Shown here piece by piece: positions 11,474 to 36,935 of a DNA stretch of 64,000 nucleotides. Below the pieces are notes generated by a model. The model had not been told where the DNA came from and did no database searches. It saw only the letters and a list, made by a program, of their open reading frames with translations. Each line of letters begins with the position of its first letter. Position 1 is the stretch's first letter. Both the position numbers and the translations under genes were made by a program. Source of the stretch: Nitrospirales bacterium (GTDB taxonomy: Bacteria > Nitrospirota > Nitrospiria > Nitrospirales > UBA8639); contig JALDRJ010000002.1 in the NCBI GenBank assembly GCA_031315865.1, positions 2,640,001-2,704,000 on the forward strand, in the 5' to 3' direction.

Positions 11474-12424
11474 TTAGATATGTTGTGTGCCAAAGTACTG
11501 CTTGGCAAAGTTGAGCCGATCCTCCAGGGTCGTGAGACGTTCAGCCTGCTCTTCAACCATGTGTAGCCGAGGCAAGAGTCCCGCACGATTGGCAATTTGA
11601 ATGTTTAACCCGGGGCGTGCGTTGAGTTCCAGGATTAACGGTCCCTGAACTTTGTCCAGGACCAGATCAACGCCTTGGTACCCTAGGCCCGTGAGTTCAT
11701 AGCATTGAGCGGCTTCCCGTAACAAAATGTCCCAATGCGGGATTTGTAAGCCTGTGATGGGTTGTTCGGTATCCGGATGTTCATGAACGATCTCATTCTT
11801 CCACACTCCACTCAATGTCTGGCCCGTACTTAAGTCAATGCCTGCCCCGATGGCACCCTGATGGAGGTTCGCCTTCCCATCCGACATTCGCGTCGGCAGA
11901 CGCACCATAGCCATGACCGGAACTCCTAAAAAGACGATGATGCGAACGTCCGGTATGCCCTGAAAACTAATGCTCTCGAAAATCGGATCAAACTTCACCC
12001 GGTATTCAATCAAAGCCTTGTCCTGATGCCCTCCGAGACTATACAGGCCGCTCAAGATGTTTGACACGTGATGATCAAGATCTTCCTGTGTCATGAATTG
12101 ACCACTGGCTTTCCGGTACCGGTTGCCGCGTCGCCCTGTGATGACGATGATGCCGTCGCCTCCACTGCCTTCCGCTGGTTTGATGACGAAATCCTGGTAC
12201 GGTTTCAGTAATTCCGACAGACCTCTGACCTGCCGTTCTATTTGGATCACGCCGTACAACTTTGGGACGGCGAGTCCGGCCTCTTCAGCCAAACGTTTAG
12301 TCGTGAGTTTGTCATCCACGAGCGGATACAAATGCCGAGGATTGTGCCAGAGGGTATACCCGGCGTTCCGGTGATTTAACCCTAAGACGCCTCGTTCTGT
12401 TAAAATTTTCGCCAGCCCAAACAT
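11474..12424 (-). CDS. Alpha-L-glutamate ligase-like ATP-grasp protein
   Basis: A 316-residue ATP-grasp protein of the RimK-related type found beside 7TM 'inactive transglutaminase' genes. Visible are the start MFGLAKILTERGVLGLNHRN, the ATP-binding strand FVIKPAEGSGGDGIIVI (~90-106) with glycine loop, and the metal/ATP site LILELNARPGLNIQIAN near the C-terminus. It should join an amino acid (glutamate in the family name) to a carboxylate of an unknown target in the cytoplasm. An AGGAGG site precedes the ATG by 10 bases. It is the last gene of the retropepsin-7TM-ligase operon, 19 bases after the 7TM gene. Confidence 0.85.
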   Translation of the reverse strand: MFGLAKILTERGVLGLNHRNAGYTLWHNPRHLYPLVDDKLTTKRLAEEAGLAVPKLYGVIQIERQVRGLSELLKPYQDFVIKPAEGSGGDGIIVITGRRGNRYRKASGQFMTQEDLDHHVSNILSGLYSLGGHQDKALIEYRVKFDPIFESISFQGIPDVRIIVFLGVPVMAMVRLPTRMSDGKANLHQGAIGAGIDLSTGQTLSGVWKNEIVHEHPDTEQPITGLQIPHWDILLREAAQCYELTGLGYQGVDLVLDKVQGPLILELNARPGLNIQIANRAGLLPRLHMVEEQAERLTTLEDRLNFAKQYFGTQHI

Positions 12425-12443
12425 GACGGTTTATCCTCCTGAC

Positions 12444-13964
12444 CTACTGGGCTAAGGCCTTGAAGCGACGTAATTCCAGCAGTCTGAACCCTGTGTATCG
12501 TCCCATGAGTAGGGTGCCGGCGAGGAAGAGCAAGAGCAATTCTGGAAACACAAACAACAAGTGTTCCATGTAGGGGATGGTCATGGCGATATACGTGAGC
12601 GAGGCAACGGCTAAACTGCCAAGCCCCTGTTGAATCGATTCGAGCGCACCCCGTTCTTCCCAGACGATGCACATGCGCTCGATGGTCATCGTCAGAATGA
12701 CCATCGGGAAGAGTGCGACGGATAGTCCACGTTCTAACCCGAGCTTGTGGCTGATCACGCTGAGTGCCGCCATGAGAAGGATGACGATGATCAACAGGGA
12801 AGCCAGGCGAGGGACCAGCAACAGTTTGAGATGTTCCAAATAAAAACGAACGGCCAATCCTAACGCGACCACCAGTGAAAACAAGACGATGCCCCATACC
12901 AATTGCGTTTCGCGAAAGGCAAGCGCCATCAGGATTGGCATGAAGGTTCCAAATGTTTTAATGCCTATCACATTTCGGAGAATGAGCAGTAACAGGGCAC
13001 CCATTGGAACCATCAACAAAATACGGTAGACGGCCTGTGCTTCAAGGGGTAGGCTGAATAAGGAAAATTCCAATAAATGAGGGGTCGCCAACTGCGTATG
13101 GTACATGGCGGCCCGAATGGCTTCTTCCTGGTTCGGAGCAATCGTGATTGTTATGGAAAAATGATCGCCGCCTTCGATTTGTGTCAACGGTTGTGTCCCG
13201 TGCCACCAGGTGAAGTAATGGCTGGGTATGTCGGGTCTGCCGGTTTCAGGATCGTGGAACTGCCATTCACCTTTATCGTAAATTTGTAGCCAGTGGATGA
13301 TGACGGCTTCTCGTTGAAACCCTTTCAGTTGAACCCCATGCACCACACGATTGGGGATGAGTGCGAACGACAGGATGTCGGAGGCCATCTGGAGCTTTTT
13401 TTCTTGGGAACGGTCATTTCCCAGCAGCAGTTGAAGATTTGGATCGCCATTGGGGTGTTTGAGTCGTGAGAAAAGTTCGGCGATGAAGGTGGACGTGTCG
13501 GCGGACTTTTCTTTGATATCTGCGACAAAGGCTTGAACTGCGGTGAGCTGCGCACCTTCGAAATACGGCGGAAGGACTTGAGGGGATTCATTGTCTGTGT
13601 GTGGACTATCCACATCCACGCGACGGACGGTGGCCCGATAATACAGGTGCTGTTTCCCGTTCGCGTTGCGGATTGACCAGGTTGCCCGTCGATTGTCTTC
13701 GTCCTTGACGGTCGTTAAGCCGTACCCTTGCGAGATGAAATTTTCATCGACGATGGCATATCGCCGGGTGTTACGTGGCAAGGCCAATGAGACTTTGACG
13801 GGTTTGTCTTTGGCGAAGAACGTCAGATGCGCTTCGACGATCCACAGTTCAACTTGCGTTTGAGGGGTTAATGGGAAGTGCAGGACGAAAACTTTGAAGA
13901 AAAACAGGCCGAGACCCACGGACACCAAACAGAGAACGAGGATATACAGATGACGCTTGTTCAA
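12444..13964 (-). CDS. Inactive transglutaminase domain fused to seven transmembrane helices
   Basis: A 506-residue inner-membrane protein with apparent TTG start. An N-terminal anchor (ILVLCLVSVGLGLFFFKVFVL) is followed by a ~250-residue extracytoplasmic transglutaminase-like domain (residues ~150-300, with VVHGVQLKGFQREAVIIHWLQIYDKGEWQFHDP-type strands but no clear Cys nucleophile). Seven C-terminal helices follow from ~310 to 495. This architecture is known from conserved operons containing a retropepsin and an ATP-grasp ligase, as here on both sides. It plausibly senses a periplasmic ligand and signals to the ligase or protease. The gaps to its neighbours are 19 and 6 bases. Confidence 0.85.
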   Translation of the reverse strand: MNKRHLYILVLCLVSVGLGLFFFKVFVLHFPLTPQTQVELWIVEAHLTFFAKDKPVKVSLALPRNTRRYAIVDENFISQGYGLTTVKDEDNRRATWSIRNANGKQHLYYRATVRRVDVDSPHTDNESPQVLPPYFEGAQLTAVQAFVADIKEKSADTSTFIAELFSRLKHPNGDPNLQLLLGNDRSQEKKLQMASDILSFALIPNRVVHGVQLKGFQREAVIIHWLQIYDKGEWQFHDPETGRPDIPSHYFTWWHGTQPLTQIEGGDHFSITITIAPNQEEAIRAAMYHTQLATPHLLEFSLFSLPLEAQAVYRILLMVPMGALLLLILRNVIGIKTFGTFMPILMALAFRETQLVWGIVLFSLVVALGLAVRFYLEHLKLLLVPRLASLLIIVILLMAALSVISHKLGLERGLSVALFPMVILTMTIERMCIVWEERGALESIQQGLGSLAVASLTYIAMTIPYMEHLLFVFPELLLLFLAGTLLMGRYTGFRLLELRRFKALAQ

Positions 13965-13970
13965 GGAAAT

Positions 13971-14504
13971 CTATTTATCCGAACAGTTGGGTTCGTGTTT
14001 ATAGGTTTGCGCGGAATCGACCACGGCCTGATGTTTTAAGAAACTACGACCGATCAACATGTTGTACGTAAAGTTTTTCCGGTCTGTCAGGTTCACGAGT
14101 GCTTTTCGTTGGAAGATGTTCCCTAAACACAGGTCGAATTCGACGACGGGACGACGTTGAGGCTTCGCGCCTTTTCGCTTGATCTTGACGTAACGATGAA
14201 TCGGTTTCTCAAGGGTCATGCTTTGTCCTTCTTTTGTCGTGACGGTGAACGTGACCCAACGTTCCGACTTTCGAACAATCTCCGAGACATCCGAGACATT
14301 GAGCGAGGATGTATCGGCCCCGGTGTCGATTTTCGCATGAAGCAAGATGTTTTCCGGGAGAATTTGGACTTTTTCCACCCAACCCACGACGAGTTTTGGA
14401 CTGTGATCGATGACTAATTCACCGTACGCATCGAGAGGGAGGCTCCAGACGGTCATCCACATCACAAATCCAACAACAAGGGAATAGGGTAAGGCGAATG
14501 TCAT
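13971..14504 (-). CDS. Retropepsin-like aspartic protease (often annotated ATP-dependent zinc protease)
   Basis: A 177-residue protein with an N-terminal signal or anchor (LVVGFVMWMTVWSLPLDAYG), so probably periplasmic. The active-site motif IDTGADTSSL (D60-T-G) and the C-terminal NMLIGRSFL strand are the two hallmarks of the retropepsin/COG4067 family; these enzymes work as dimers with one Asp per subunit. It is the first gene of the three-gene operon with the 7TM and ATP-grasp genes. Homologous operons in proteobacteria have been linked to osmotic tolerance, which fits the neighbourhood but is not shown here. Confidence 0.86.
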   Translation of the reverse strand: MTFALPYSLVVGFVMWMTVWSLPLDAYGELVIDHSPKLVVGWVEKVQILPENILLHAKIDTGADTSSLNVSDVSEIVRKSERWVTFTVTTKEGQSMTLEKPIHRYVKIKRKGAKPQRRPVVEFDLCLGNIFQRKALVNLTDRKNFTYNMLIGRSFLKHQAVVDSAQTYKHEPNCSDK

Positions 14505-14695: not shown

Positions 14696-15880
14696 TTATT
14701 TGGCGATGGTGATGCTCGGAACCCCAAGTCTCGGGACTTCGGAAACCGTCATCTGAAACAACTGATACAGAAGTCTGAAGGCTTCTCGATTCCAGTTATT
14801 CTGTTCGTCATCCCGGAAACCATAGTACTCGCCCTGATAATACACATATCGTTCCATGTCATCTAACACCCGGTCTGACTCGAGAATCTGTAGCGTTGTT
14901 GTCGGGTTTTTATTGACGGGCGGCGTTCGTGGATCTTTCGGAACATCGTACTCCGGCGCGTCATGGATGCCGCGTCCGAGAAAATTCAGAATAGCATGAA
15001 AACTGCGTAGTCGAAACTTTCCCTGGATGGGATATTCTCCGCCAGGATGGTCCGGTCGAACATCCACGAGAATATCGTTGGGTGGCCACCGGTCGGCCTT
15101 TTGGTGCAAGCGTATGCGTTCATCGTTGGGAAGATTATCGGGATCATAATTTGTGATAAGAATGCGGCCGGTGACTCGTTTCTCGAGGATATAGCGTTGA
15201 TGGCTTTCATCAGCGGTGATCCGATAATGTCGTTCCAGCTCTCGAAAATCATCACCGGATACGTTGGCGGACGGGATGGTCCAGGTATTGTGGTAGATCA
15301 TGGGTTCCACGTACAAAAGGTTGCGATCCTGCAATGTGGACAATTGCAAGACGACCTGTCGAAATACCATGTAGGACTGACGGTCCGCGGGTCTGTTGTA
15401 GTAGACGATTTCGCGGGGATTCCCCGGTATCCGTAGCTCGGCTGCCATGAGACGAAGAAGTAAGTCAATATCGACCCCTTGACGCAACAACAGGGTTAAG
15501 TTTCCCTCGTGTAATGGCGTGAGAAGCCGTTTCGTAAATGCCTTACCTTCAATGGGCACGATACTGATGGTTGGGTTTTCAGCGACGCTGGTGCCAAAAA
15601 CCGGCGATAGATGGAAGCCTCCGTCTAGCCCGCCGAGGGGAGGGGTCGCTCCGGCATGCAAGCGAAAATCAAACGTGGCGGCGATATTCGACACGCCCGT
15701 GAAGTGAATGGGGTGGTGGTGGTGAGCGCGAGCGATATTGAGGAGTAGTTGCTCGGTTAACGTGTTCGTGACGGCATGATCATACGCTGTGACGGCATGG
15801 TCGAGCGCAAACGGTGAGAGGCAGGCCGATGTGTTGAGCATAAGCACGCTGATTACACTCCAGAGTCGAAACGTTCCCAT
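14696..15880 (-). CDS. Putative envelope (lipo)protein of unknown function
   Basis: The preferred start is the ATG at 15880, after AAAAAGGATCAAGCCAC; the frame is open further upstream but without ribosome sites. The 394-residue product starts MGTFRLWSVISVLMLNTSAC, a signal sequence with an imperfect lipobox. Phrases such as LTEQLLLNIARAHHHHPIHFTGVSNIAATF and AENPTISIVPIEGKAFTKRLLTPL recall a widespread family of uncharacterised lipoproteins (LLNIVRxRYxxxPxFxxVSSI-type); I know no function for it. It ends ~190 bases before the retropepsin gene on the same strand and may be cotranscribed. An inverted repeat precedes the start. Confidence 0.65.
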   Translation of the reverse strand: MGTFRLWSVISVLMLNTSACLSPFALDHAVTAYDHAVTNTLTEQLLLNIARAHHHHPIHFTGVSNIAATFDFRLHAGATPPLGGLDGGFHLSPVFGTSVAENPTISIVPIEGKAFTKRLLTPLHEGNLTLLLRQGVDIDLLLRLMAAELRIPGNPREIVYYNRPADRQSYMVFRQVVLQLSTLQDRNLLYVEPMIYHNTWTIPSANVSGDDFRELERHYRITADESHQRYILEKRVTGRILITNYDPDNLPNDERIRLHQKADRWPPNDILVDVRPDHPGGEYPIQGKFRLRSFHAILNFLGRGIHDAPEYDVPKDPRTPPVNKNPTTTLQILESDRVLDDMERYVYYQGEYYGFRDDEQNNWNREAFRLLYQLFQMTVSEVPRLGVPSITIAK

Positions 15881-15911
15881 GTGGCTTGATCCTTTTTCTG
15901 GATGTTTCATG

Positions 15912-15934
15912 CTACTGGACAAGCCGTCCAGTAG
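15912..15934 (-). promoter_or_regulatory. Inverted repeat in the leader of the envelope protein gene
   Basis: Perfect 9-bp arms CTACTGGAC / GTCCAGTAG with a 5-base loop, 32 bases upstream of the chosen start at 15880. On the transcript the loop reads GGCUU and can pair with AAGCC lying between the ribosome site and the ATG. It could be a DNA operator or an RNA control hairpin. Confidence 0.4.
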
Positions 15935-16032
15935 ACATTTCCGTACCAATCCCCAACGACAGCAAGAAAACTCGTCGCGTATCGAAACGTTAGGAGCAAA
16001 ACGGCGGTTCGACAACTTCGTCATCGTGTTCG

Positions 16033-16071
16033 ACGAAAAGACCACGAGCATTGTGCTCGTGATCTTTTCGT
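16033..16071. terminator. Terminator after the RimK operon
   Basis: Near-perfect inverted repeat (about 18 bp, one C/A mismatch): GAAAAGACCACGAGCA at 16035-16050, loop TTG, complementary arm 16054-16069. The minus-strand arm ends in TTTT. It lies 37 bases downstream of the repeat-protein stop (16108) and separates this operon from the envelope-protein gene. Confidence 0.75.
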
Positions 16072-16107: not shown

Positions 16108-17064
16108 CTACTTTTTAAATGGCTCTTTTAGCACGACCTTCACGCCATCAATCGTTCCTGTGACGGCGTTTCGCACTTTTTCGCCTGCGCTTGAGCTGAT
16201 TTCTTCTGCGGCTTTCAGTGCACTCGTAGCCGCTGCGGACGCCGCCTCGGCCGTGTCGACGCCGATAGTTTTCGCCCCCTCAATGGCGCCCTCCACACAA
16301 TGTCTGGCGGTCGTCGCCAAATCGCCTCCAACTTTCGCCGTCACCCTAATCATCGAGCCTGCAGTGGTTCCCACGGTATCCAGCGCTTGTTCTCCCATGT
16401 CTTTGCTCGCTTCAAGCGCTCCGCACATCGTGGCCTTGGCGGTGGAGGCCAGGTCGCCGCCGACCTCGACTGTGGCTTTGACGATGTTGCCCGCCACATG
16501 GCTGATGGTTTCTACCGTTTTTTCTCCAACCTCTTGAGTGGCCTGGGCCGCCCCCATAATTGCTTGTTTTGCAGTCTCGGCTAACTCACCACCCACGGCA
16601 CTCACTCCTTTAATCGCGGCTGTGGACGCCTGGCAGGCAGCCTCAGCGATACAGGATCCGACATCTTTAGCTGCCACGATAGCTCCCTCAACGGCCCCTT
16701 TTGTCGTTTTAGCCAAGTCACCGCCAACTTCTGCTGTGGTTTTGATCAATGTTGAGGTACTGACGCCTATGGTCTCCAGCGTGTCGGTCGTCACTTCTTT
16801 CGTACCCTTGACGATACCGACGATCACTCCCTTGGCCGCGGACCCCGCTTCCCCTCCGACTTCTGTGATGCCTTTGACCGAGCCGATAATCGTGTCTTTG
16901 AGCAGGTTGCCGACCTCGCCACCGACCACTTTTGTGCTTTTTAGGGCCGTCACTAATGTCCCACTGAGTTGCTCAAGCAGCGCGTTCGTGATATCACCGG
17001 TACCTTGGATCGCCTCAACGACGCCTTCCTTGGTTTTGACAATGAGAGATTTTTCGTCAGTCAT
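16108..17064 (-). CDS. 44-residue (4 x 11) repeat protein with synuclein-like hendecads
   Basis: The ATG at 17064 has a strong AGGAGGG site 5 bases away; the open frame starts 13 codons earlier. The 318-residue product is almost all Ala/Gly/Val/Thr/Lys/Glu. A VGG[DE]-[LV/A] motif occurs at residues 47, 69, 113, 157, 201 and 245: one 22-residue step and then four exact 44-residue steps, all multiples of 11. Repeats also share [AL]K-x3-x-G-x-x-[AK] blocks (AKQAIMGAAQA, AKATMCGALEA, TKGAVEGAIVA). Residues 10-20 read KTKEGVVEAIQ, the alpha-synuclein 11-mer pattern. There is no signal peptide or true transmembrane helix. Such 11-residue periodicity suggests an amphipathic helix that lies on membranes, or a LEA-like stress protein. 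It is the last gene of the RimK operon. Confidence 0.75.
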   Translation of the reverse strand: MTDEKSLIVKTKEGVVEAIQGTGDITNALLEQLSGTLVTALKSTKVVGGEVGNLLKDTIIGSVKGITEVGGEAGSAAKGVIVGIVKGTKEVTTDTLETIGVSTSTLIKTTAEVGGDLAKTTKGAVEGAIVAAKDVGSCIAEAACQASTAAIKGVSAVGGELAETAKQAIMGAAQATQEVGEKTVETISHVAGNIVKATVEVGGDLASTAKATMCGALEASKDMGEQALDTVGTTAGSMIRVTAKVGGDLATTARHCVEGAIEGAKTIGVDTAEAASAAATSALKAAEEISSSAGEKVRNAVTGTIDGVKVVLKEPFKK

Positions 17065-17105
17065 TGTGCCCTCCTTGTGTGAAGTATTGGATAATGAGAC
17101 CATGA

Positions 17106-18170
17106 CTAATGCAGGAGAGGTTCCTCTCCTACTTCTTCGTGAATATCTTGGACCACTTTTTGTGCCGTGTGTGCATCCTCCACCTGTGCGATATGGAATA
17201 GCGCATCGCCTTGATTAATCACTGGCAGGTTTGTTCGTCCGATGAGAATGCCTGATGCTTTGGCCTTCACGATTTTTTGAGTCTCGCCCATGGGGTCTGT
17301 GATGGTTCCGATGTTTTCGTTCCGTTTCACCTTTCCTCCCATCGGATGGAACGAACGAAAAATACCACCGGTTTGGGCTCTGACCCAGTATGAAGACATG
17401 GAGATGATACTCTTCGATCGAGTGAAAGAACGAGATGTTCTGATCATGCCAAGAGCCTGCATGACTCGAAGAACGCCCCGGACGCCTAACCGAATCGCGA
17501 GTTCGTCAAAGCGTAATGCTTCACCCGCTTCATAGAGCAGTGTCGGGATGTTTTGGTCCGTCGCCGCTTGCCGCAAAGAGCCGTCCCGAAGGTCGGAATG
17601 GAGAGTCAGGGGAGCAGAAAAAATGTCGGCGAGGCGTTGAATGGTGGGATCGGAAAGATTTCCTCGAATCTGTGGCAGGTTCGAGCGGTGGATGGCCGCG
17701 GTATGCAAGTCAATGCCGTGCGTGCACCGTAAGACGACCTCCTTCATGAATAAATACGCCAATTGCGAGGACAACGAACCTTTTTTACTACCCGGAAAAC
17801 TTCTGTTGAGATCCCGACGATCGGGCAGGTACCGGGAGTGAGATAAAAACCCAAAGACGTTGACGATCGGCACTGCGACCAGGGTTCCATGCAGGGCATT
17901 GAGAGAAGGCGCCTTTAAAATGCGACGAATGATTTCTAACCCGTTGAGTTCGTCTCCATGAATGGCGGCGCACATGAAGAGTCGCGGGCCATCTTTCTTC
18001 CCATGTATCACGTGAACAGGAATATCCATGGGCGTGTGAGTCGAAAGCAAACTGATCGAAAGATTGATAGACTGCCTTGATCCAGGCTGGACCGTCATGC
18101 CTCCGATCTCGAATGGTTCGCGATGCGTTTTACCCACGACCGCGTGTCTTTGTTTTGTGGGGTTTCGCAT
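17106..18170 (-). CDS. M14-type succinylglutamate desuccinylase/aspartoacylase family protein
   Basis: Start taken at the ATG at 18170, overlapping the rimK end by 41 bases; the ribosome site is poor and a GTG at 18137 is possible. The zinc carboxypeptidase-like core is complete: [10 protein letters not shown] (His and Glu ligands of HxxE), DLNRSFPG (Asn-Arg substrate site), GIDLHTA (third His) and LLYEAGE (catalytic Glu). The C-terminal ~100 residues form the beta-barrel lobe typical of aspartoacylases. The family cleaves acyl or aminoacyl amides of aspartate/glutamate. Beside RimK it may remove or trim glutamate tails or act on a small glutamate conjugate; this role is inference. Confidence 0.85.
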
Positions 18171-19035
18171 TCTTCTCGATGAACTGAATGATTGAACCCG
18201 CGACATCGATCCCAGTCGCTTTTTCAATTCCCTCAAGACCGGGGGATGAATTGATTTCCATCACGACTGGTCCATGTTTTGATCGCAATAAATCGACACC
18301 GCAGACATTCAAGCCCATGATATTCGCAGCCCGGGTGGCGGTCGATCGTTCTTCTGGAGTGATTTTGATCACTTCCGCCGAGCCGCCTCGATGAAGGTTC
18401 GAACGAAAGTCTCCCTTCGCCCCTTGACGCTTCATGGCCGCGATGACGCGATCCCCGATGACCAGACAACGAATGTCAGACCCTCCGGCTTCTTTGATGA
18501 ACTCCTGAACCATGATATTCACTTTGACTCCGCGGAATGCTTGAATGACTGACTTGGCAGAGTTGTGCGTTTCTCCCAACACGACGCCAATGCCTTGCGT
18601 GCCCTCCAAGAGTTTAATGACGACCGGTGCCCCGCCAGCTATCGTAATGACATCATCAGCGAAATCATCAGAGTGGGCAAAGGCCGTGACGGGTAACCCG
18701 ATGCCTTTCCGCGCCAGGAGTTGTAAGCTCCGAAGTTTATCACGTGAACGACCGATCGCGACGGATTCGTTCAGCGGCCAGACTCCCATCATCTCGAATT
18801 GTCTCAAAACCGCCAAGCCGTAAAAAGTGACTGAAGCCCCGATACGTGGGATGACCGCATCGTATCCTTCCAGTTTTTCCCCTTTGTACCGGAGTTCGGG
18901 GTTATGTGATGTGATATTGACGTACACTTTTGTGGTGTTGATGATATCGATATGATGCCCCGCAGCTTGGGCGGCTTCTACGAGCCGTTGATGGGAATAC
19001 AATTTGGGGTTTCGTGCCATCATCGCCAGTTTCAT
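18130..19035 (-). CDS. rimK: RimK-type glutamate ligase (ATP-grasp)
   Basis: At 301 residues it is the standard RimK length. Visible are the N-terminal preATP-grasp domain ([22 protein letters not shown]), [11 protein letters not shown], the ATP-binding strand [17 protein letters not shown], the carboxylate-contact motif [39 protein letters not shown], and the metal site [16 protein letters not shown]. RimK adds glutamates to the C-terminus of ribosomal protein S6 in Escherichia coli and can make poly-glutamate. An AAGGAGG site sits 7 bases before the ATG. It is flanked by a retropepsin gene upstream and an M14 enzyme gene downstream, the composition reported for RimK regulation in other bacteria. 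Confidence 0.93.
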
Positions 19036-19092
19036 GCAATCCTCCTTCTGAAAAGAATAAATGTGTCCGATGGTCAGGAATACAGTATGTCG

Positions 19093-19518
19093 TTATTGCT
19101 CCAGACAAAACGACTTTCCCGGGTGGACGAGATAATGTTGTCTGATCGCTGTGCGACCTAATAACATTCGAAAGCCCATTTGATCACGATTCGTCAGCGT
19201 GATTTCAATCGGCCAGGCCTTTCCGCCCAATGACAGGGTGGTTTTAATCACGATCCGTTCTTCTCGGCCTCCCCCGGAATTGGTCACAGTTCTGACATCA
19301 TGGACTGGACAGGCACAGGTTCGGCTATCGCGATCGTTTTTTTGGAGTGGATGCACGGCGAATCGAACCCACTCCTGTCCTTCTTTCTGAAAGAGATGAA
19401 TATCAAAGGCATGAAGCGCTGAAGTTCGCGCTCCGGTGTCAATCTTGGCCTTGATGCGATCCACGCCAAACCCGGGGAGTGCAACCCATTCCCTCCATCC
19501 AATGATAGGTTTCGTCAT
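19093..19518 (-). CDS. Retropepsin-like protease paired with RimK (RimB/COG4067 type)
   Basis: A compact 141-residue cytoplasmic protein (no signal peptide) with KIDTGARTSALHA, placing the catalytic Asp at residue 27, and the C-terminal FRMLLGRTAIR strand of the family. It is a clear paralog of the secreted retropepsin at 13971-14504 but lacks the anchor. A CxC pair occurs at SRTCACPVHD. It is the first gene of the operon, 57 bases ahead of rimK. In characterised systems such proteins modulate or process RimK; the 'ATP-dependent zinc protease' label is historical. Confidence 0.87.
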   Translation of the reverse strand: MTKPIIGWREWVALPGFGVDRIKAKIDTGARTSALHAFDIHLFQKEGQEWVRFAVHPLQKNDRDSRTCACPVHDVRTVTNSGGGREERIVIKTTLSLGGKAWPIEITLTNRDQMGFRMLLGRTAIRQHYLVHPGKSFCLEQ

Positions 19519-19580: not shown

Positions 19581-20615
19581 TTAATGAAAATTGACTAATG
19601 GGCTCCGCTTCACGATCCCGCGTAAGAGACGCCCCAGAATGTCGGCACCCGTAATGATTCGTTTATGGGCTTCCGTCCACACGAGTATCAGATCCTGATC
19701 GATGACATCATCTTCGTCATGTTCAGGGTTGACTTTCAATCGAGTCAGGAGTTCTCCAAGCGGCACATTCGCTCGATCCAGAATGATTGGACGATGACAG
19801 TGCCAGGAAGGTCGGTAACGCTCCTCGACCAGTAATTCCCTGAGGAATCCATCGGCATCGAGGACGAGGCGGGGATAGGCCGATTCGTCAGTGATAATCA
19901 CCCATTTTTCTTTCGATCGATGAACACGTTCGACAAACAGACTCGAAACGGTCGGCGTGTCCGGGGGAAAGACGATTCGTTGACCATCAAAAGGAAGCTG
20001 AACGATGCTATGGGGATGCAACGGAGAACCTTCTTCGACGGAAGAAACATCATCAAGCTTCAAGAAGTTCGAGGCCCCATGGCCTTCGACGTCGCTGATG
20101 TCGGTCTCGGGAGCCTGAGCATGGATTTTCAAGAGCGTGTCGAGCTCATGCTCTTTGAACCAGGTAATTCCCTCCTTGCCTACGATCCAGTCAAGAAGCA
20201 AGGCCGAGGGTTTAGCCATGGGATAGAACACGATTTGTAATAGTTTGACGATCGGGGCAAATTTTGCTCCTAGTCGTAACGCGTTTCTTGAAAAATACGC
20301 TTGAGGCAAAATCTCACCAAATAGTGTAATGCCGAATAGCGAGAAGAAAAATGCCAGAATTCCAAGCATTTGTTCTTCAGAAAGTAACGTCAGTAACACG
20401 TTGACCGCAACGTTGCTCCACAGCAGGGTCGCCAAGAGAAAATTGGCATCTTGACGGATGTGTAATACGGTTTGGGCTTCGGCGTTTCCTTGCTGATCGA
20501 GCAACTCAAGATGTATACGGCTGAGGCTAAAGAATCCGAGCGTCAGGCCTGAACATACGGCGGATCCTGCTAGACAGCAGAGAATCCCTACCCACATCAA
20601 TACAGATTCCATCAT
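19581..20615 (-). CDS. CNNM/DUF21-domain membrane protein
   Basis: Start at ATG 20615 (a second ATG follows at 20612); the frame is open back to a TTG inside mgtE. The 344-residue product has an N-terminal DUF21 bundle: SAVCSGLTLGFFSLSRIHLELL, LLATLLWSNVAVNVLL, ITLFGEILPQAYFSRNALRL (EILP-Q motif), FYPMAKPSALLLDWIVG. A divergent CBS-like region (~200-330) ends in WTEAHKRIITGADILGRLLRG. CNNM/CorC-type proteins are implicated in Mg2+ or divalent cation efflux. It follows mgtE by 58 bases, in line with a shared ion function. Confidence 0.8.
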   Translation of the reverse strand: MMESVLMWVGILCCLAGSAVCSGLTLGFFSLSRIHLELLDQQGNAEAQTVLHIRQDANFLLATLLWSNVAVNVLLTLLSEEQMLGILAFFFSLFGITLFGEILPQAYFSRNALRLGAKFAPIVKLLQIVFYPMAKPSALLLDWIVGKEGITWFKEHELDTLLKIHAQAPETDISDVEGHGASNFLKLDDVSSVEEGSPLHPHSIVQLPFDGQRIVFPPDTPTVSSLFVERVHRSKEKWVIITDESAYPRLVLDADGFLRELLVEERYRPSWHCHRPIILDRANVPLGELLTRLKVNPEHDEDDVIDQDLILVWTEAHKRIITGADILGRLLRGIVKRSPLVNFH

Positions 20616-20673
20616 ATGAATTTCGCTTTTATTTTTTTGCAACCAATGGTAGTTGTGTTCTTTTCTTGTGTTG

Positions 20674-21975
20674 CTATTCGAGTAAACTGGCAAAAATAGT
20701 AGCGAGTCCTAAAAAGCTGAGGAACCCCGCGACATCGGTTACTGTTGTCAGTATGATGGATGACGATTGGGCCGGATCTTGATTGAGGGCTCGCAGGATG
20801 ATGGGAATCACAGCCCCGGAAAGCCCCGCCATGACCATCGACATGACCATGGAAATCGCGATCACCATCGTGAGTCCCCATGACCGACTCCAAATATAGA
20901 CGGCAGCCGATGTTGTTGCCGCAACGGCCACCCCATTCACGAATGCTACATAGGATTCTTTCGTTGCCACACGGACCCACTGAGTCGGTCGGATATCACG
21001 CAGAGCCAAGCCACGCATGACGACGGCGAGCGCTTGCGCCCCCGTATTACCGGATTGTCCTGCTACGACGGGAAGCAAGACGGCCAAGGCTGTAAATTGG
21101 GCGATAGTGTCTTCAAACAGACCGACGACGAACGCTGCGAGGAAGGCCGTGAGCAAGTTAATTTGCAGCCAAGGCAAACGCTTACGTACCGCGAACATTG
21201 GTGGAGAAAGCGCACGTTCGTCTTTGCTCGCTCCTACCATGGTTTGCATGCCGATCGTAGCCTCTTCCTTTTCGACCTCGATGATGTCCCGGTTTCGGAT
21301 CACTCCGAGTAAGCGGCCATTCAAATCAGTGACGGGGATCGTTAGCACCTTCCATTGATCGAACACTTCAACCACTTGTTCCTGGCTTTCAAGCGGATGA
21401 ATCGTCGGCAATTCTTGTTTCATCAGGGATTGGAGGCGTTCATATTGGGGGGCGAGAAACAGATCTCGGAGTGGCAGAATACCAGTTAGGGTCTGATCGC
21501 GATCGATGATGTAGATTTCGTGCAAATCTCGTGGGGCTCGGCTTCTGACTTGGTGAATGGCTTCGTCGATGTTCAAATCTTGAGGAAGCGCGAAAAATCG
21601 CGGATCCATAAGTAGGCCAACCGAATCTTCCGGGTAGTCGAGGAAGATCCTGATCTCCGACGAGAGGCTTTCGGGCACCGTGTCTAACACGAGTTGCTGC
21701 TGTTGTTCTGGCAGTCTTCGCAAGAGGGTCGCGACCACAGCGATATCCATCTCGGGAAGGGCCTTTTGTAGCATGTCCGCAGGCATGGCGGCCAACACCT
21801 CGGCGGCTATGGCCGGTGTCATGGCAGCAACAGTCTTGGCGATGTCACGCCCCGATACCTCGTGAAGTATCTCTAAGATTTCTTCGACTGGATACGACTC
21901 GAAGACTCGCGCGGCTTCTTCCGGGTATTGCGAAATAAAAGCTTCATGCATCGAAAGTGTCGGGGCCTGCGTCAT
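20674..21975 (-). CDS. mgtE: Magnesium transporter MgtE
   Basis: A 433-residue protein with the full MgtE order: N-terminal helical MgtE_N superhelix (~10-125, with repeated AAEVLAAMPADML-like helices), a CBS pair (~130-255: VGLLMDPRFFALPQDLNIDEAI, ITLTGILPLRDLFLAP-like and LKVTDLNGRLLGVIRNRDII-like strands), then the five-helix pore domain from ~280 with AVLLPVVAGQSGNTGAQALAVVMRG, the conserved selectivity helix. It mediates Mg2+ entry gated by cytosolic Mg2+. Its ATG overlaps the stop of the MgtE-N/CBS paralog (21972-21975) and has AGGAG 8 bases upstream. Confidence 0.93.
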   Translation of the reverse strand: MTQAPTLSMHEAFISQYPEEAARVFESYPVEEILEILHEVSGRDIAKTVAAMTPAIAAEVLAAMPADMLQKALPEMDIAVVATLLRRLPEQQQQLVLDTVPESLSSEIRIFLDYPEDSVGLLMDPRFFALPQDLNIDEAIHQVRSRAPRDLHEIYIIDRDQTLTGILPLRDLFLAPQYERLQSLMKQELPTIHPLESQEQVVEVFDQWKVLTIPVTDLNGRLLGVIRNRDIIEVEKEEATIGMQTMVGASKDERALSPPMFAVRKRLPWLQINLLTAFLAAFVVGLFEDTIAQFTALAVLLPVVAGQSGNTGAQALAVVMRGLALRDIRPTQWVRVATKESYVAFVNGVAVAATTSAAVYIWSRSWGLTMVIAISMVMSMVMAGLSGAVIPIILRALNQDPAQSSSIILTTVTDVAGFLSFLGLATIFASLLE

Positions 21976-22838
21976 CTGAGCGTCTCCTCTTGCCCACGTG
22001 TAGGCTTCTCATGTTGTGCCGCCTTGAGTATATCTCCCATGGTCGTCATTAATCCGATTCCCGAAAGAGCGTAGGCCTCCCAGAGTTGAAGGAGGGCATC
22101 AGAGAGAAAGTGAGGTTCTGGTTCATCGTGTCGACCTTCCAGGAATTTTTTTAAAGCTCGATGGCGTAACACTCCGATAAAAGACTTTTCTTGCTCAACG
22201 ACGGGAAGACTATCGTACAGTTGCCAAGCCGGGTGATTCAGCAGATCCTGGGCGTTTGCCGAAGCCGGGATCTTCTTGACATCTTCATTCATGACAAATT
22301 GTAGGGGCTTGTCGGCGTTGGCGGCGAGCAATTCTTTCATCAAGACCACTCCGTGTAATGTGGTGTCGTGATCCGTGATATATAAATAATAGATGGCTTG
22401 CTGGCATTCTTGGCCGATGCGTTTGAGCGCCTGCTCGACGGTAAGATCCGGTGGAAGCGTGAGGACACGAGGGTCGGCGAGGCTCCCAGCGGTAAAGTCC
22501 GGATGAGTTAACGTCCGTCGCAAATAGGAGGCAAGGGTCGAATCGATATGAGACAAAAGCGTGGACCGAACGGAGTCATCGAATTGTCTAAGCACAGCAC
22601 GGGCTGCGGTCGTCGAGAGACGACTGATGAGTCTCCCGCTTATCTCTGGTGAAAAATGCTTCAAGACTTCCGACATGTTTCCTGGCAGATAATGTTCAAG
22701 GACCGAGGAGATGGTTTCTATCTGTAATTCCTTCAAAAACCGAGACGAAATAGCAGGGGGATGGGACTCGAGAAAGCGAGCGGCCTCCATCGGATGTTTC
22801 TGAATGTACGCGTTCGTGAGGTCTTGTTGGAGGCCCAT
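21972..22838 (-). CDS. Soluble MgtE-N/CBS paralog lacking the pore domain
   Basis: A 288-residue protein that aligns with the cytosolic half of MgtE: helical repeats (AYIQKHPMEAARFLESHPPAIS, FSPEISGRLISRLSTTAAR), a 'TAGSLADPRVLTLPPDLTVEQALKRI' segment equal to the VGLLMDPRFFALPQDLNIDEAI segment of MgtE, and two CBS-like parts ending in FIGVLRHRALKKFL. No transmembrane helices follow; it ends in a short tail. It is translationally coupled to full-length mgtE and probably came from a duplication. A role as partner or Mg2+ sensor for MgtE is inference. Confidence 0.82.
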   Translation of the reverse strand: MGLQQDLTNAYIQKHPMEAARFLESHPPAISSRFLKELQIETISSVLEHYLPGNMSEVLKHFSPEISGRLISRLSTTAARAVLRQFDDSVRSTLLSHIDSTLASYLRRTLTHPDFTAGSLADPRVLTLPPDLTVEQALKRIGQECQQAIYYLYITDHDTTLHGVVLMKELLAANADKPLQFVMNEDVKKIPASANAQDLLNHPAWQLYDSLPVVEQEKSFIGVLRHRALKKFLEGRHDEPEPHFLSDALLQLWEAYALSGIGLMTTMGDILKAAQHEKPTRGQEETLR

Positions 22839-22839
22839 G

Positions 22840-23676
22840 TTACGATCCCGATCCTGGTGAGATTACGCTCGCGACCTCGGTGAACTGAGCCGCCGGCACG
22901 ACCACGCGGCCACGTTCCGTTTCCAGTACGACGACCATGGGAGTGACGGCGGTCACCGTCCCGAAATGAGGCCCAACCTGTATTTGTTCTCCTATTCGAA
23001 TAATGGGCTGGATATAGTGTGCGGCGATAAGGTTGCCGACGGCCGATCGAGATCCAAACCCGAATGACAATGCCGCGCCAGCGATCAGCCCGGCGGCGAT
23101 TAACACGATGATTTGATTGAGCAAAGAGGTATCGATCCCCAATTCGTTGATGGCTGTTACGAGCACCAGAAGCGTCGCTGCGACGTAGACGGTCTGAGCG
23201 ATGACCGTGCCTTGACGAATGCCTGCTGAGTCACAGGCCAGGGCTATCAACTCACGAACGAAGTTGGTCGCCAGCAACCCAAGGACGAGGATAAGAGTGG
23301 CCAGGCCGACCCTGGGAAGATAATAGGCGAGACCGGTCAACGCTTGCGAGAGGAGTGACAACTCGAGGGTCTCGGTGGCGGAAATGAGGAAAAGAAGAAA
23401 AATCACCCAAAATGCGACCGATCCGATAATTTGGGAGATGGTTTTCTGACTGCCGGTTTTTTGTAACACAGACAACATCCCTGTTCCGCGAAGTAGTCGA
23501 TCTGCTCCCAGCAGTTCCAGTAGACGACTGATTCCTGTTTTTACGAGTTTGCCCAAAGCGATCCCGATTCCGAGGAGGATGATGGCTCCGACGGTTTTGG
23601 GAAGAAAAGTCATAAAGAGCGTAAAACTGGCCTGTACGGAATCTTGTATTGCCGTCGTCCAATTTGTCATGTCCAC
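22840..23676 (-). CDS. MscS-like small mechanosensitive channel family protein
   Basis: Start chosen at GTG 23676, seven bases after AAGGAGG; an ATG lies six bases further in (23670). The ~279-residue protein has four or five transmembrane helices (FMTFLPKTVGAIILLGIGIALG, VAFWVIFLLFLISATETL, GLATLILVLGLLATNF, IIVLIAAGLIAGAALSFGFGSRSAVGNLIAAHYI) and a short beta domain RIGEQIQVGPHFGTVTAVTPMVVVLETERGRVVVPAAQF, the MscS-type soluble barrel. It opens the operon with MgtE-N, MgtE and CNNM proteins (1-base gap to the next gene). It is a paralog of the proteins at 24905 and 35057. Confidence 0.82.
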   Translation of the reverse strand: MDMTNWTTAIQDSVQASFTLFMTFLPKTVGAIILLGIGIALGKLVKTGISRLLELLGADRLLRGTGMLSVLQKTGSQKTISQIIGSVAFWVIFLLFLISATETLELSLLSQALTGLAYYLPRVGLATLILVLGLLATNFVRELIALACDSAGIRQGTVIAQTVYVAATLLVLVTAINELGIDTSLLNQIIVLIAAGLIAGAALSFGFGSRSAVGNLIAAHYIQPIIRIGEQIQVGPHFGTVTAVTPMVVVLETERGRVVVPAAQFTEVASVISPGSGS

Positions 23677-23835
23677 AATGACACCTCCTTGATGATTGAA
23701 TGCAGGCATGATAGGGAATGAGAACTTTCGATGAAGGTGTAGCAAGTCGCAAAGGCGACATTCACTCTCTGCCATAGGTCAAGAAAGTTCTGTATGACTC
23801 CTTCAGTCATGAGAGCTTCCGGCTATTCTTATTCA

Positions 23836-24904: not shown

Positions 24905-26356
24905 TCAATCTCCTCGCAACGAACGAAACCAATGTTCCATCTGCCGACCGGCGGCTTCTCGTCCGCCCAGACCAAATGAGAGGGCCACGGCGACAGCGAT
25001 CGCCCCGAGCGTGAGACCGAAGGCCAAATTGACGATATCATCGGCCAGCCCCATAGCTCGCAATCCCATGGCCAATATGAGCCCCAGGATAGCAAACCGC
25101 GCGATATTGGCTGCCGAAGTGGATACTGCGCGAGCAATGGTCGAATGCGCGAGATTGGAGAGCCAGAAGCCGACAGTGATGATGATCCCGCCAAGTAGAA
25201 CCTGACTGCCGAACTGAATAAACATCGCCACCAGGTCAGACACTTGCTCGAACCCAAGGCGGTTGGACGCTTCCACGACAGCAAAAAGCATGATGAAAAA
25301 GCTCGCGATCTTTCCAGCGAGTTGAGACGGCGTGAGTTCGCTGGTACAGAGCTGTCCCACCCCGAGCTTCTCCGGCAGTGCATTGAATGCCATCCCTCCC
25401 AGAAGATTGCTGACCAGTGATGAAACCAGCGTGGACACGAAGTAGGCGATGACGAGAATAATGGCTGCAGCAAAGATGTGAGGGAGTGCCGTCATCATCA
25501 CGTCTAACATTTCGATGGCAGGTGTGGTGAGCGCATCGATATTCAGGGCTTCCAGGGCGGCAATCATGGCCGGAATCAGGATGAGGATATAGACGACGAG
25601 TGCCACCAGATGTGACAGACTCATCGTTCCCCGAAGGCCGGCATTCTCTCCCAGACGATCCGCTCCCGAAGCGGTTAAGAGATTGCTGACTAAATCTCGT
25701 AGTATTTTGGCCACAAACCAGCCGACTACGCCGATGATGCCGGCTGCGACGACGTTCGGTAGCATCGCCAGTATTTCATTCACCATATCCTGCACTGGGT
25801 CGAGCAGTCCTTTGAGTTCCAATGCGCCGAGTATGGCTGGCAGGAATAATAAGAAAATAAGCCAGTATAAGATATTTCCCAGGACATCGCTCATCGGACG
25901 CATGCCAGCGCTCGAGGAAAGTTTTTCATCTAATGTGGTGGCACTCAGCGTCTTCGTTACGAAGGTGCGAAGGATCGTCGCTAATACCCAAGCGACGAGG
26001 AGCAAGACCCCAGCGGCCACTAATTTTGGGACAAACTCGAAGACCTGACCGACGAGTCCATGAAGCGGCCCCGAAACGGTTTCGAGCTTGAGTGCGTTGA
26101 AGAACGCCATAAGAACCAAGAGCAAAAGGACGTAATACAACCCCGCGGCGATGCCGGATTCGAGATCGATCTGAGTGCCGGTATTGGTCTGTAATCGACT
26201 ATTCAGTTTGAGGAATCCGAGCGATTTTCGAATGCCACCTCGGATGGCCACAGCAATAATCCACCCCGCAACGAGAATCGCCAGAGCCCCAAGCACGGTT
26301 GGCAATGTCTCTCCGAGGGTTGCTTGTAATGATTCCGTGAGTCTACTTATGTCCAT
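24905..26356 (-). CDS. CmpX-like membrane protein with repeated TM-helix motifs (MscS-related)
   Basis: Start at ATG 26356 behind GGGGAGG (5-base spacing). The 483-residue protein repeats a unit of two helices: 'TLPTVLGALAILVAGWIIAVAIRGGIRKSL', 'FVPKLVAAGVLLLVAWVLATILRTFV', 'MLPNVVAAGIIGVVGWFVAKILRDLVSNLL', 'ALPHIFAAAIILVIAYFVSTLVSSLVSNLL', each [LV]P-x2-x-A-x2-[IL] followed by a basic turn (PF05552-type). It ends with FGLTLGAIAVAVALSFGLGGREAAGRQ, the MscS pore-like helix, and almost no soluble barrel. CmpX proteins act on membrane tension and envelope stress. There is an unusually high internal repetition of four or more units. Confidence 0.82.
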   Translation of the reverse strand: MDISRLTESLQATLGETLPTVLGALAILVAGWIIAVAIRGGIRKSLGFLKLNSRLQTNTGTQIDLESGIAAGLYYVLLLLVLMAFFNALKLETVSGPLHGLVGQVFEFVPKLVAAGVLLLVAWVLATILRTFVTKTLSATTLDEKLSSSAGMRPMSDVLGNILYWLIFLLFLPAILGALELKGLLDPVQDMVNEILAMLPNVVAAGIIGVVGWFVAKILRDLVSNLLTASGADRLGENAGLRGTMSLSHLVALVVYILILIPAMIAALEALNIDALTTPAIEMLDVMMTALPHIFAAAIILVIAYFVSTLVSSLVSNLLGGMAFNALPEKLGVGQLCTSELTPSQLAGKIASFFIMLFAVVEASNRLGFEQVSDLVAMFIQFGSQVLLGGIIITVGFWLSNLAHSTIARAVSTSAANIARFAILGLILAMGLRAMGLADDIVNLAFGLTLGAIAVAVALSFGLGGREAAGRQMEHWFRSLRGD

Positions 26357-26704
26357 GATTGCCTCCCCTGAGATGTTAACCAATTCTTTTACCCTTGCTG
26401 TTCAAGGCATACAACGGCCTTCTTTGTTCCTTTCATTTCAATCCGTTGTGAAGACTTAGACAATCGAAGCGATCATTAGGTCACATTACTTTTTGTTACA
26501 GAATAGCCAGGAGCATATTTCTAGACAAAAATCTCCCGGCGATTCCTGATCCGAACAAGACAAAAAGTCTACTGCAACGTAGTGCGAAAGAACGGATGTT
26601 TGGAGCTTGAAAAAGCCTTGAACTTGCCGCATACTGTTGTGAAGAAAGCTCTAAGTGTTCCTTTAAGAAGTGTCTAAATTTTCTATTTTGGAGGGCAGGG
26701 GATT
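26357..26704. other. Intergenic region between divergent genes
   Basis: About 350 bases upstream of both the CmpX-like gene and the second glycan cluster. It is AT-richer than its surroundings and should hold two divergent promoters; I could not fix -35/-10 boxes with confidence. A GGAGGG site lies just before the glycosyltransferase ATG. Confidence 0.45.
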
Positions 26705-27661
26705 ATGAACGATCTTCAACAACAAACACCCCTATTGGCGAGTGTCGTGACAGTGGCCGATTACAAAGCTGGTGAACAGGAATCGTGGGATGAGTTGCGG
26801 TTGACCTTGGAAGGGCTGGCCTCTCAGGATTTCGAAGGGGCAGTCGAGCATATACTCGTAGAAGCTGAAGATTCGACTCTGGATATCCCTGAAGCGTTAC
26901 GGCAAATACTCCCCAGCTTGAGGGTTGTCCGAGCCAAAGGTCGGACATCATACGATTTGAAAAATGCGGGTGCTGCCGCTGCCAAGAGTGACTTTGTGAT
27001 TATGCTCGATGCCGATTGTGCACCCCATCAACAATGGCTGAGTTCGGTCATGCGCCATCGTGCGACACATCCGAAGGCCGCCGCGATCAGCGGACGAACA
27101 CTATATAAAACCAAAGGGCTCCTGCCGAACATTTTTGCCTTGCTCGATCGTGGGTATGTCGACCCCGGACATGCCGGAACGACCAAGGCCATCTCCAATA
27201 ATAACGGCGCGTTTGCGCGTGATATCATCTTGAAGTATCCCTTGCGGAACGACGTTGGCCCATTTGGGTCCAAGCCCCATGCCGAAAGATTGCTGGCCGA
27301 GGGAAGAGAGTTGCGTTTTGAGCCGGGTATGGTCGCATACCATGGGTACGGTGGATGGGAAATGGCGAAAGAAATTCGGAAACATACCGGCTATTCGATG
27401 GCCCGGTATCGACAGATTAATCCAAACGCCCGGTGGGCCTGGCTTTACCGGACGGGCGCATTTGGCATTCCGGTCATCACGTGTATGTCAATCGCGAAGA
27501 GCTGCATGAAATGCGTTCAATTGGGCTCGTACTATAATATTAAATGGTATCAAATGCCCGTGGCGTGGTGGGTTGCGGTCAGGACGCATTTCTTGGAAAT
27601 TCCCGGCTTGGCCCTGGCGATGAATGGTGGGACCATGGACGCGGAAAACGCGTATCGATAA
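26705..27661 (+). CDS. Family 2 glycosyltransferase
   Basis: A 318-residue GT2 protein with ASVVTVADYKAGEQESWDELRLTLEGLASQ at the start, an LDAD metal site (D102, D104 in VIMLDADCAPHQQW), NNNGAFARD and a late HAERLLAEGRELRFEP segment. The C-terminal third has hydrophobic stretches. It leads a plus-strand set of four genes (two glycosyltransferases and two methyltransferases), spaced 2-10 bases apart. Donor and acceptor are unknown. Confidence 0.85.
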   Translation: MNDLQQQTPLLASVVTVADYKAGEQESWDELRLTLEGLASQDFEGAVEHILVEAEDSTLDIPEALRQILPSLRVVRAKGRTSYDLKNAGAAAAKSDFVIMLDADCAPHQQWLSSVMRHRATHPKAAAISGRTLYKTKGLLPNIFALLDRGYVDPGHAGTTKAISNNNGAFARDIILKYPLRNDVGPFGSKPHAERLLAEGRELRFEPGMVAYHGYGGWEMAKEIRKHTGYSMARYRQINPNARWAWLYRTGAFGIPVITCMSIAKSCMKCVQLGSYYNIKWYQMPVAWWVAVRTHFLEIPGLALAMNGGTMDAENAYR

Positions 27662-27670
27662 CCTCTGTCC

Positions 27671-28765: not shown

Positions 28766-28767
28766 TA

Positions 28768-29451: not shown

Positions 29452-29461
29452 TAAGGAGCCT

Positions 29462-30214: not shown

Positions 30215-30242
30215 ACATTTATCGCTCCCAGTCGCCTCTCTC

Positions 30243-31424: not shown

Positions 31425-31433
31425 GCGACTCTC

Positions 31434-33825: not shown

Positions 33826-33827
33826 CG

Positions 33828-35934: not shown

Positions 35935-36114
35935 TCACTCGAAAATTGTATCAGACAGTAGCGTCAACGGAATCGACAAATAAAATGCCCCGACTTCCTT
36001 GGCGACGAGAAGAAGGAAGACCGCTTTCATCACGCGTTCTTTCGTCATGCGATCAGGCTCAGGAAGCTCTAATGCATCTAAGACCTTCTCAAACACCAGC
36101 TCTTCGTCATTCAT
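35935..36114 (-). CDS. 59-residue protein coupled to an ECF sigma factor
   Basis: A short ORF (start MNDEELVFEKVLDALELPEP, then RMTKERVMKAVFLLLVAKEVGAFYLSIPLTLLSDTIFE). Its ATG overlaps the sigma stop (ATGA, 36111-36114) and it ends 11 bases before the MscS-like start. The first half is acidic and helical; the second half is hydrophobic with Lys/Glu breaks, at most one weak membrane segment. No zinc motif or known anti-sigma domain is visible. The position between a sigma factor and its likely target suggests a tiny anti-sigma or membrane adaptor; this is inference. Confidence 0.65.
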   Translation of the reverse strand: MNDEELVFEKVLDALELPEPDRMTKERVMKAVFLLLVAKEVGAFYLSIPLTLLSDTIFE

Positions 36115-36638
36115 GGTTTTACCTCTTTGCGAAGCTTGGTCATCAATCGTGACACTCGCATCTTCACAGCACTGATACTGAGACCATGAGTCTCTGCAAT
36201 TTCTTCGTAGGTATAGTCTCCCATGTATTTCATCGCCAGGAGTGTCCGGTCTTCGACGGACAATCGAGCAAGAATCGTGTTGACTTCAGCTGAATGCGTC
36301 GGGTCACTCGTACAGACATCTGTTGCTTCTTCGACTCTTTCCAACACACTGGCCGTCCGGGCTCTACGTTTGAGGTGATTGAGGCAGTGATTGGTGGTCA
36401 ATCGATACAGCCATGTGGAGAAGGCTGCCTGTTTGTTGAACCCGTAAAGACGCAAGAACACTTTTAACCAAATTTCTTGCATCAATTCATGAGCATCCGC
36501 AGTATTGAGGCAAATAAAGTAACAGTGTTTCAGGACCTTGGAGGCATAGCGATCGTACAAGGTTTCAAACGCCTTGAGATCGCCCTGAACGATACGATCA
36601 ATTAATGTGTTGTCCTCGTCAATATCGGCGATACTCAT
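36111..36638 (-). CDS. ECF RNA polymerase sigma factor (RpoE-like)
   Basis: A 175-residue sigma-70 factor. Region 2: LIDRIVQGDLKAFETLYDRYASKVLKHCYFICLNTADAHELMQEIWLKVFLRLYGF and FSTWLYRLTTNHCLNHLKRRAR. Region 4: ILARLSVEDRTLLAMKYMGDYTYEEIAETHGLSISAVKMRVSRLMTKLRK. It heads an operon with a 59-residue ORF and an MscS-like gene. No conventional anti-sigma gene lies beside it, unlike the sigma at 7574. The 297 bases upstream (36639-36935) contain no gene and must hold its promoter. Confidence 0.9.
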   Translation of the reverse strand: MSIADIDEDNTLIDRIVQGDLKAFETLYDRYASKVLKHCYFICLNTADAHELMQEIWLKVFLRLYGFNKQAAFSTWLYRLTTNHCLNHLKRRARTASVLERVEEATDVCTSDPTHSAEVNTILARLSVEDRTLLAMKYMGDYTYEEIAETHGLSISAVKMRVSRLMTKLRKEVKP

Positions 36639-36935
36639 CTATGGAAACATGCGGATGAACGGAACCGTACGAGTGTACTCAAGGTGATGGTATGATTGGC
36701 TGTGACGGGATGAATACCTTGGTTATACTCGGGATCGCACCGCTGTCTTCCTATCCTTGGGTGTTGAGACGGTTTTGAGTATGACAAGATGGATGGCTTC
36801 GATCGCTTAAAAGTACACAATCTGTGAAGTGCGAGTAGACCGATGTCTTGGAGTTAGACCACTAGAAGAGAAAATTCGTCACTTTTCTTGAGGGGGGCAT
36901 CGCTTCAATGAATCATGACTTCCGATCGTTCGAGA

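Follow-up and report, generated by a model that had tools for sequence, protein, structure and literature searches.

In Pseudomonas, two systems that combine a retropepsin with an ATP-grasp protein, RimABK and RloABC, are separate loci (PMC12239564), and Rlo has a function in hypo-osmotic tolerance (PMC11957791, PMC12239564). Among lipid-binding proteins, the 3-11 helix of alpha-synuclein has a moment of 0.30 and that of perilipin-4 (Plin4) one of 0.257 (PMC5889406). The gene described here encodes a repeat protein and lies beside homologs of RimB, RimK, RloA, RloB and RloC (compare PMC11957791 and PMC12239564), in a 64,000-nucleotide stretch of a Nitrospirales genome (the window; GenBank assembly GCA_031315865.1, contig JALDRJ010000002.1, positions 2,640,001 to 2,704,000). 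On the minus strand of the window the genes follow one another as MscS-like, lipoprotein, MscS, two MgtE-like, CNNM-like, RimB, RimK, M14, repeat protein, a hypothetical protein (ORF451), RloA, RloB and RloC (Table 1). The RloABC genes (11474–14504) and the RimB-RimK-M14 genes (17106–19518) share a strand and lie within about 8 kb. The downstream hypothetical protein (14696–16051) has no Pfam match and would carry a probable lipobox, LNTSAC, if its start is near 15880; a 70% identical copy occupies the same place in one genus mate (G003 in our numbering of genomes, G, and loci, L).

Table 1. Features of the locus, in window coordinates
Feature	Position	Strand	Basis or remark
Gene of the 318-residue protein of 22/44-residue helical repeats	16108..17064	-	ATG at 17064, stop at 16108; orthologs dN/dS 0.04-0.09
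Ribosome-binding sequence AAGGAGGG	17069..17076	-	A few bases 5' of the repeat-protein ATG
Six-VGG region, residues 47-247, steps 22 and 44	16324..16926	-	Sequence positions and AF2 turns
Conserved C-terminal tail TGTIxGVKVVLKEPFKK, residues 302-318	16111..16161	-	Partly modelled as a beta hairpin
Palindrome with T-rich tail directly 3' of the repeat-protein gene, likely terminator	16043..16061		Scored on the plus strand only
M14-type hydrolase (AstE/AspA catalytic domain), precedes the repeat gene	17106..18236	-	PF24827 E 6e-38
RimK, S6-type glutamate ligase	18130..19035	-	NF007764 438.6 bits, cut-off 331
RimB-type retropepsin	19093..19518	-	PF05618 E 1e-41; NF052261 131.7 bits, below cut-off 200
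CNNM/CorC-like membrane protein	19581..20693	-	By inspection; beside RimB also in G002, G016, G062, G067
Two MgtE-like genes	20674..22838	-	By inspection; synteny
MscS-family protein	22840..23775	-	PF05552, PF00924
MscS-related membrane protein, four conserved TM repeats, first gene downstream of the ECF-type motif	24905..26383	-	PF05552 E 5e-52; motif some 74 bases 5' of the ORF
ECF-type promoter motif TGTGAC-N17-TGTCTA, exact	26457..26485	-	One of two in the genome, only exact one in the window
ECF sigma factor gene, candidate regulator	36111..36638	-	TIGR02937 86.8 bits; Sigma70_r2, r4_2
RloA-type retropepsin	13971..14504	-	PF05618 E 1e-34; NF052264 119.1 bits, below cut-off 210
RloB-type inactive transglutaminase/7TM protein	12444..13964	-	PF14402, PF14400
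RloC-type ATP-grasp protein	11474..12424	-	PF14397, TIGR02291

The repeat protein is real, conserved and previously unnamed; no Pfam or NCBIfam family scores above its own cut-off for it. An earlier note on this DNA had correctly given the coordinates and length of the ORF and the starts of its VGG motifs (residues 47, 69, 113, 157, 201 and 245); the strand, which it did not give, is minus. The gene is also, as that note had it, the last of the RimB-RimK-M14 run; the palindrome comes after it. The product has a net charge of -8, a GRAVY of +0.19 and residue fractions of 0.41 hydrophobic, 0.003 aromatic and 0.22 charged, and is best explained as cytosolic. Of 49 genomes in the taxonomic family, 10 carry an ortholog of 317–318 residues, with identical turn positions and a repeat register kept without indels, and strong purifying selection acts on these orthologs (dN/dS 0.04–0.09 between pairs); one genus mate is the Nitrospirales MAG NPIRA02. 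More distant homologs were found in MAGs named Deltaproteobacteria, Omnitrophota and Eisenbacteria and in G328, which belongs to another family of the same order. Their lengths vary by whole 44-residue units, save for one 29-residue unit in L009 and L010, and L011, L012 and L014 are three 44-residue units shorter. The tail reads TGTIxGVKVV(L/I)KEPFK in nearly all homologs and KVIVKEPFK in G328.

Spacing by exact multiples of 11, as proposed earlier, holds for the VGG steps but not for the repeat unit. Self-identity is 0.233 at a step of 22 and 0.27 at a step of 44, and is at chance level at 11 (0.107) and 33 (0.116; shuffled mean of maxima 0.113). Because identity recurs at 22/44 and not at 11/33, 11 is merely a divisor, and the correct unit is a 44-residue pair of 22-mers with VGG at one end. 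The hydrophobicity of the protein has a single dominant period of 3.667 residues, whose power, 409, compares with a mean maximum of 47 and a 99th percentile of 81 in shuffled sequences. Over the whole length the 3-11 moment is 0.31 (2000 shuffles reach at most 0.147), equal to the mean of local 33-mers, and the amphipathic phase therefore does not slip: the polar and apolar faces that a helical wheel at 11/3 had been proposed to look for are present and in phase end to end. Amphipathicity is not a product of repetition alone, since just 7 of 2000 permutations of the 22 positions, applied consistently across all units, reach the observed moment. Of the 29 invariant glycines, 21 fall on hendecad positions 2, 4 and 8. 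Two of these positions, 4 and 8, are outside the main hydrophobic face, a pattern that suggests packing between helices.

The AF2 model of the protein, built with 13 sequences (pLDDT 87.8, pTM 0.86), predicts short helices broken at VGG. These include residues 73–88, 95–112, 117–135, 139–156, 161–179, 183–200 and 205–219, with inter-helix turns at 45–48, 69–72, 113–116, 157–160, 201–204 and 245–248. Designed helical repeats match the fold best (8cws, Z 26.9 over 312 residues; DHR4, Z 16.5), and the best natural chains reach a Z of at most 7.8 in a comparison within Foldseek's own list. AF2 can give confident false solenoids for repeat sequences, mainly beta (PMC11795689), and the hairpin fold is therefore treated as a prediction. 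Even with a method that can mislead on repeats, the modelled turns at VGG argue against a single continuous synuclein-like helix. From composition the earlier note had suggested a membrane-lying amphipathic helix or an LEA-like protein; features of the former are present, one continuous helix is unsupported because the AF2 model has breaks at VGG, and LEA or hydrophilin identity was rejected on the positive GRAVY and the lack of any LEA profile match. Published 3-11 lipid-binding helices fit the biophysical numbers of the protein equally well, and a protein packed in solution that opens on lipid would reconcile the AF2 fold with these 3-11 properties.

The reported synuclein 11-mer is present at residues 10–20 (KTKEGVVEAIQ), and shuffled sequences seldom contain its KTKEGV (4 of 20,000), but it occurs in a single copy and is no conserved motif, because orthologs read KAKEGV, KAKESV, KTKESV, KTKDCI, SVKDGV or SVKEEI at this hexamer. 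Membership in the synuclein family was rejected, with no Pfam match to E 0.1 and no PDB-chain match to E 10 besides the one unconserved copy; the 11/3 amphipathic periodicity of synucleins is there. The phasin profile PF09361 does not match the repeat protein of the window (P0001) and gives 28.1 bits in L009 (cut-off 24.9), with no single stretch passing; PHA synthase (PhaC_N) was found in none of the 49 genomes, so there would be no PHA granules to coat. A PDB search with the alignment returned only weak-E tape-measure and designed helical proteins, which we took as composition. PHROGs gave weak matches only, one of them a tape-measure protein; no match covering the repeat protein came from the viral fold library, and none from the plasmid search.

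Gene order around the repeat gene differs among its carriers. It is RimB-RimK-M14-repeat protein in the genus mates G002, G003 and G004, CNNM-repeat protein-RimB-RimK-M14 in G015, and MscS-like-repeat protein-RloA-RloB-RloC in G007. The repeat gene of G016 is divergent from a sigma-factor gene like that of the window and lies about 11 kb from RimB, with the same divergent pair in G071; in G063 and G068, no such partner was found near it. Altogether the gene adjoins RimB-RimK-M14 in five of 10 family genomes (two orders) and RloABC in one, and RimB-RimK-M14 stands at the syntenic place with no repeat gene behind it in G062 and G016. Of the 10 carriers, 7 have a retropepsin (PF05618), as do 9 of the 39 non-carriers (Fisher p 0.008, uncorrected for kinship); it was found in none of 7 distant carriers, some of whose assemblies are incomplete. 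Since all seven distant carriers are without a retropepsin and some family loci lie apart, the link of the repeat gene to Rim/Rlo is real but confined to one bacterial family.

A promoter motif of the ECF type was derived by inspection of the upstream regions of G016 and G071, where it lies about 45–65 bases before the repeat gene itself, and was then tested on other genomes; it is also found upstream of the repeat-gene clusters of three further lineages (G007, G015 and the window), so that most loci of the family have it. Exact sites number 1–4 per genome in 12 genomes searched whole, against 0–1 per strand for the reversed pattern, although the sites are not independent because these genomes are related. 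They precede MscS-like genes (G007, G067 and the window), the CNNM-repeat protein-RimBK-M14 genes (G015) and the repeat gene (G016, G071); further sites stand before Asp23 genes, BON/OsmY-like lipoproteins and glgB, and several lead into genes with no evident stress role. The exact site of the window is 9.4 kb upstream of the repeat gene with a 443-bp gap between, and read-through is therefore assumed; no ECF-type site was found at the repeat gene in G063 and G068. Upstream of the ECF sigma gene there is a two-mismatch site (36855–36883), of a kind expected by chance. Its position, and targets that point to the envelope and to osmotic stress, make the sigma factor of the window the putative reader of the motif. 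The repeat protein belongs to an osmotic/envelope stress gene set with RimK-type enzymes. A sigma-70 scan around the locus gave fewer sites than shuffles, and Rfam found nothing over 8–40 kb of the window. In the window, genes resembling those for glycosyltransferases, methyltransferases and polysaccharide export form a block (26705–34955) that cuts off the ECF sigma gene, together with one MscS-type gene, from the remaining stress cluster; G016 and G067 have no such block between their counterpart genes.

The profile also found proteins of about 230 residues with the same VGGD-type 22-mers, which adjoin a P-type ATPase in 30 of 32 loci. That ATPase is related to one with an N-terminal HMA_2, and separate HMA_2 and DUF5132 genes are usual. 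A conserved operon of DUF5132, an HMA_2 protein, the ~230-residue repeat protein and an HMA_2-bearing P-type ATPase (L027–L041 and L071–L087; for example, L030:1–3130) occurs in the phylum of the window and in that of G424; no paper in the literature listing mentions DUF5132. The profile of the first family scores the second at 76–86 bits, where shuffles keeping the composition of the 22 positions reach at most 75 and whole-22-mer shuffles 99.5. As these scores fall within the whole-22-mer shuffles, the families share the unit and not the order of units, and by this comparison their homology is not proven. For the P-ATPase-linked family AF2 gave long helices at a pLDDT of 52 and no confident model.

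We give a probability of about one half to the reading that this is a cytosolic protein of 44-residue hairpins, expressed through the ECF sigma factor under osmotic or envelope stress and bracing or scaffolding at the inner membrane. Such stress would act through the ECF-sigma promoter to produce the repeat protein together with mechanosensitive channels and RimB-RimK-M14 and/or RloABC. Each hairpin would pair two helices, both some 18 residues long, through VG/VGG turns, with the conserved beta-hairpin tail at the end of the array. The most likely job would be that of a coat or brace of the inner membrane, or of a scaffold for membrane proteins there: in the manner of exchangeable apolipoproteins, short helices packed in the cytosol may open and lay a weak amphipathic face on lipid, and close again. 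A membrane-side structural function is likely. Against this reading count the net charge of -8, unfavourable for an anionic membrane, the lack of an anchor, the AF2 caveat for repeats, the low-confidence model of the P-ATPase-linked family, the distance of the exact site in the window and the absence of a site at the gene in G063 and G068. A bolder version, which we regard as decidedly improbable, sees in the protein nature's own equivalent of the designed helical repeats: osmotic shock would make the cytosolic solenoid unroll onto the inner membrane, and the protein would be the structural arm of an ECF regulon whose polyglutamate systems, RimBK and RloABC, serve the same response.

A possible but doubtful alternative is a protein like synuclein or perilipin-4, unfolded in solution and forming a single continuous 3-11 helix only on membrane or lipid. 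Its moment, low charge and near-absent aromatics match both of those proteins, the amphipathic phase is kept over the full length, and the low-confidence long helices of the P-ATPase-linked family would suit it; set against this are the confident hairpin model with VGG at the turns, a repeat of 22/44 rather than 11, the invariant glycines off the main hydrophobic face, the negative net charge, the unconserved KTKEGV and the missing PhaC. We think it unlikely that the protein is a purely soluble alpha-solenoid that makes no lipid contact and serves as a scaffold for protein partners, be they channels, transporters or RimK/Rlo enzymes. The resemblance of the model to designed helical repeats, growth by whole hairpins, a conserved small-residue face and the related family beside P-type ATPases would all fit, but a stable soluble solenoid is not usually so poor in charge and so rich in Gly/Thr/Val, the AF2 caveat for repeats applies here too, and no partner is known.

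The earlier note had further proposed a substrate or partner of glutamylation rather than a bystander. More than a bystander it is, because the ECF-type motif is common to it and the Rim/Rlo operons; this sharing suggests co-regulation and is no evidence of glutamylation. In the substrate version, RimK or RloC would extend the tail of this non-ribosomal protein with glutamates and the retropepsin would trim them. The gene adjoins RimB-RimK or RloABC in six genomes and three arrangements, the retropepsin is enriched among carriers as given above, and ribosomal protein S6 of this genome (L022, G000:C2 about 663,600) ends in GRVQ rather than Glu despite a full RimK, so RimK may have another target; according to one account, RimK may have other roles where S6 is without a terminal Glu (PMC11957791). 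This leaves room for another target, which the tail of the repeat protein does not resemble: in place of a C-terminal glutamate it ends in the basic KEPFKK (KEPFK in several orthologs), and it stays the same even in distant genomes that yielded no retropepsin, so nothing marks the protein as a RimK substrate. With RimK operons also existing without the repeat gene, direct glutamylation by RimK is unsupported, and the substrate version is very improbable.

The unnamed repeat protein and the related repeat family span several phyla. One ECF-type motif ties RimBK and RloABC, whose targets are poorly known, to mechanosensitive channels in a testable stress regulon, and the P-type-ATPase-linked family suggests that such repeats may be a wider accessory of bacterial membrane transport. 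Like the PacL scaffolds (PMC9374683), the second family consists of repeat-bearing partners whose genes accompany one for a P-type ATPase. PacL differs in having a TM domain, a metal motif and DUF1490, none of which was seen in the repeat proteins, and their small neighbour is DUF5132. The designed proteins DHR4 and 8cws share the predicted fold and no kinship, the protein described here being natural and its fold only a model. With exchangeable apolipoproteins it shares amphipathic 22-residue helical units, but its turns use Gly instead of Pro, and the apolipoprotein A1/A4/E family (PF01442) was rejected at 13.6 bits against a cut-off of 90. Alpha-synuclein and perilipin-4 resemble it in 11/3 periodicity, moment (0.31 here, against 0.30 and 0.257), low charge, near-zero aromatics and richness in Thr, Gly and Val (PMC5889406); it differs from them in its 22/44 unit, net charge, modelled VGG turns, lack of detected homology and place in a bacterial stress regulon. 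Compared with RimABK and RloABC of Pseudomonas, for which the available parts of the accounts mention no repeat protein (PMC11957791, PMC12239564), the window adds an M14-type hydrolase, MscS-type genes and the ECF-type motif.
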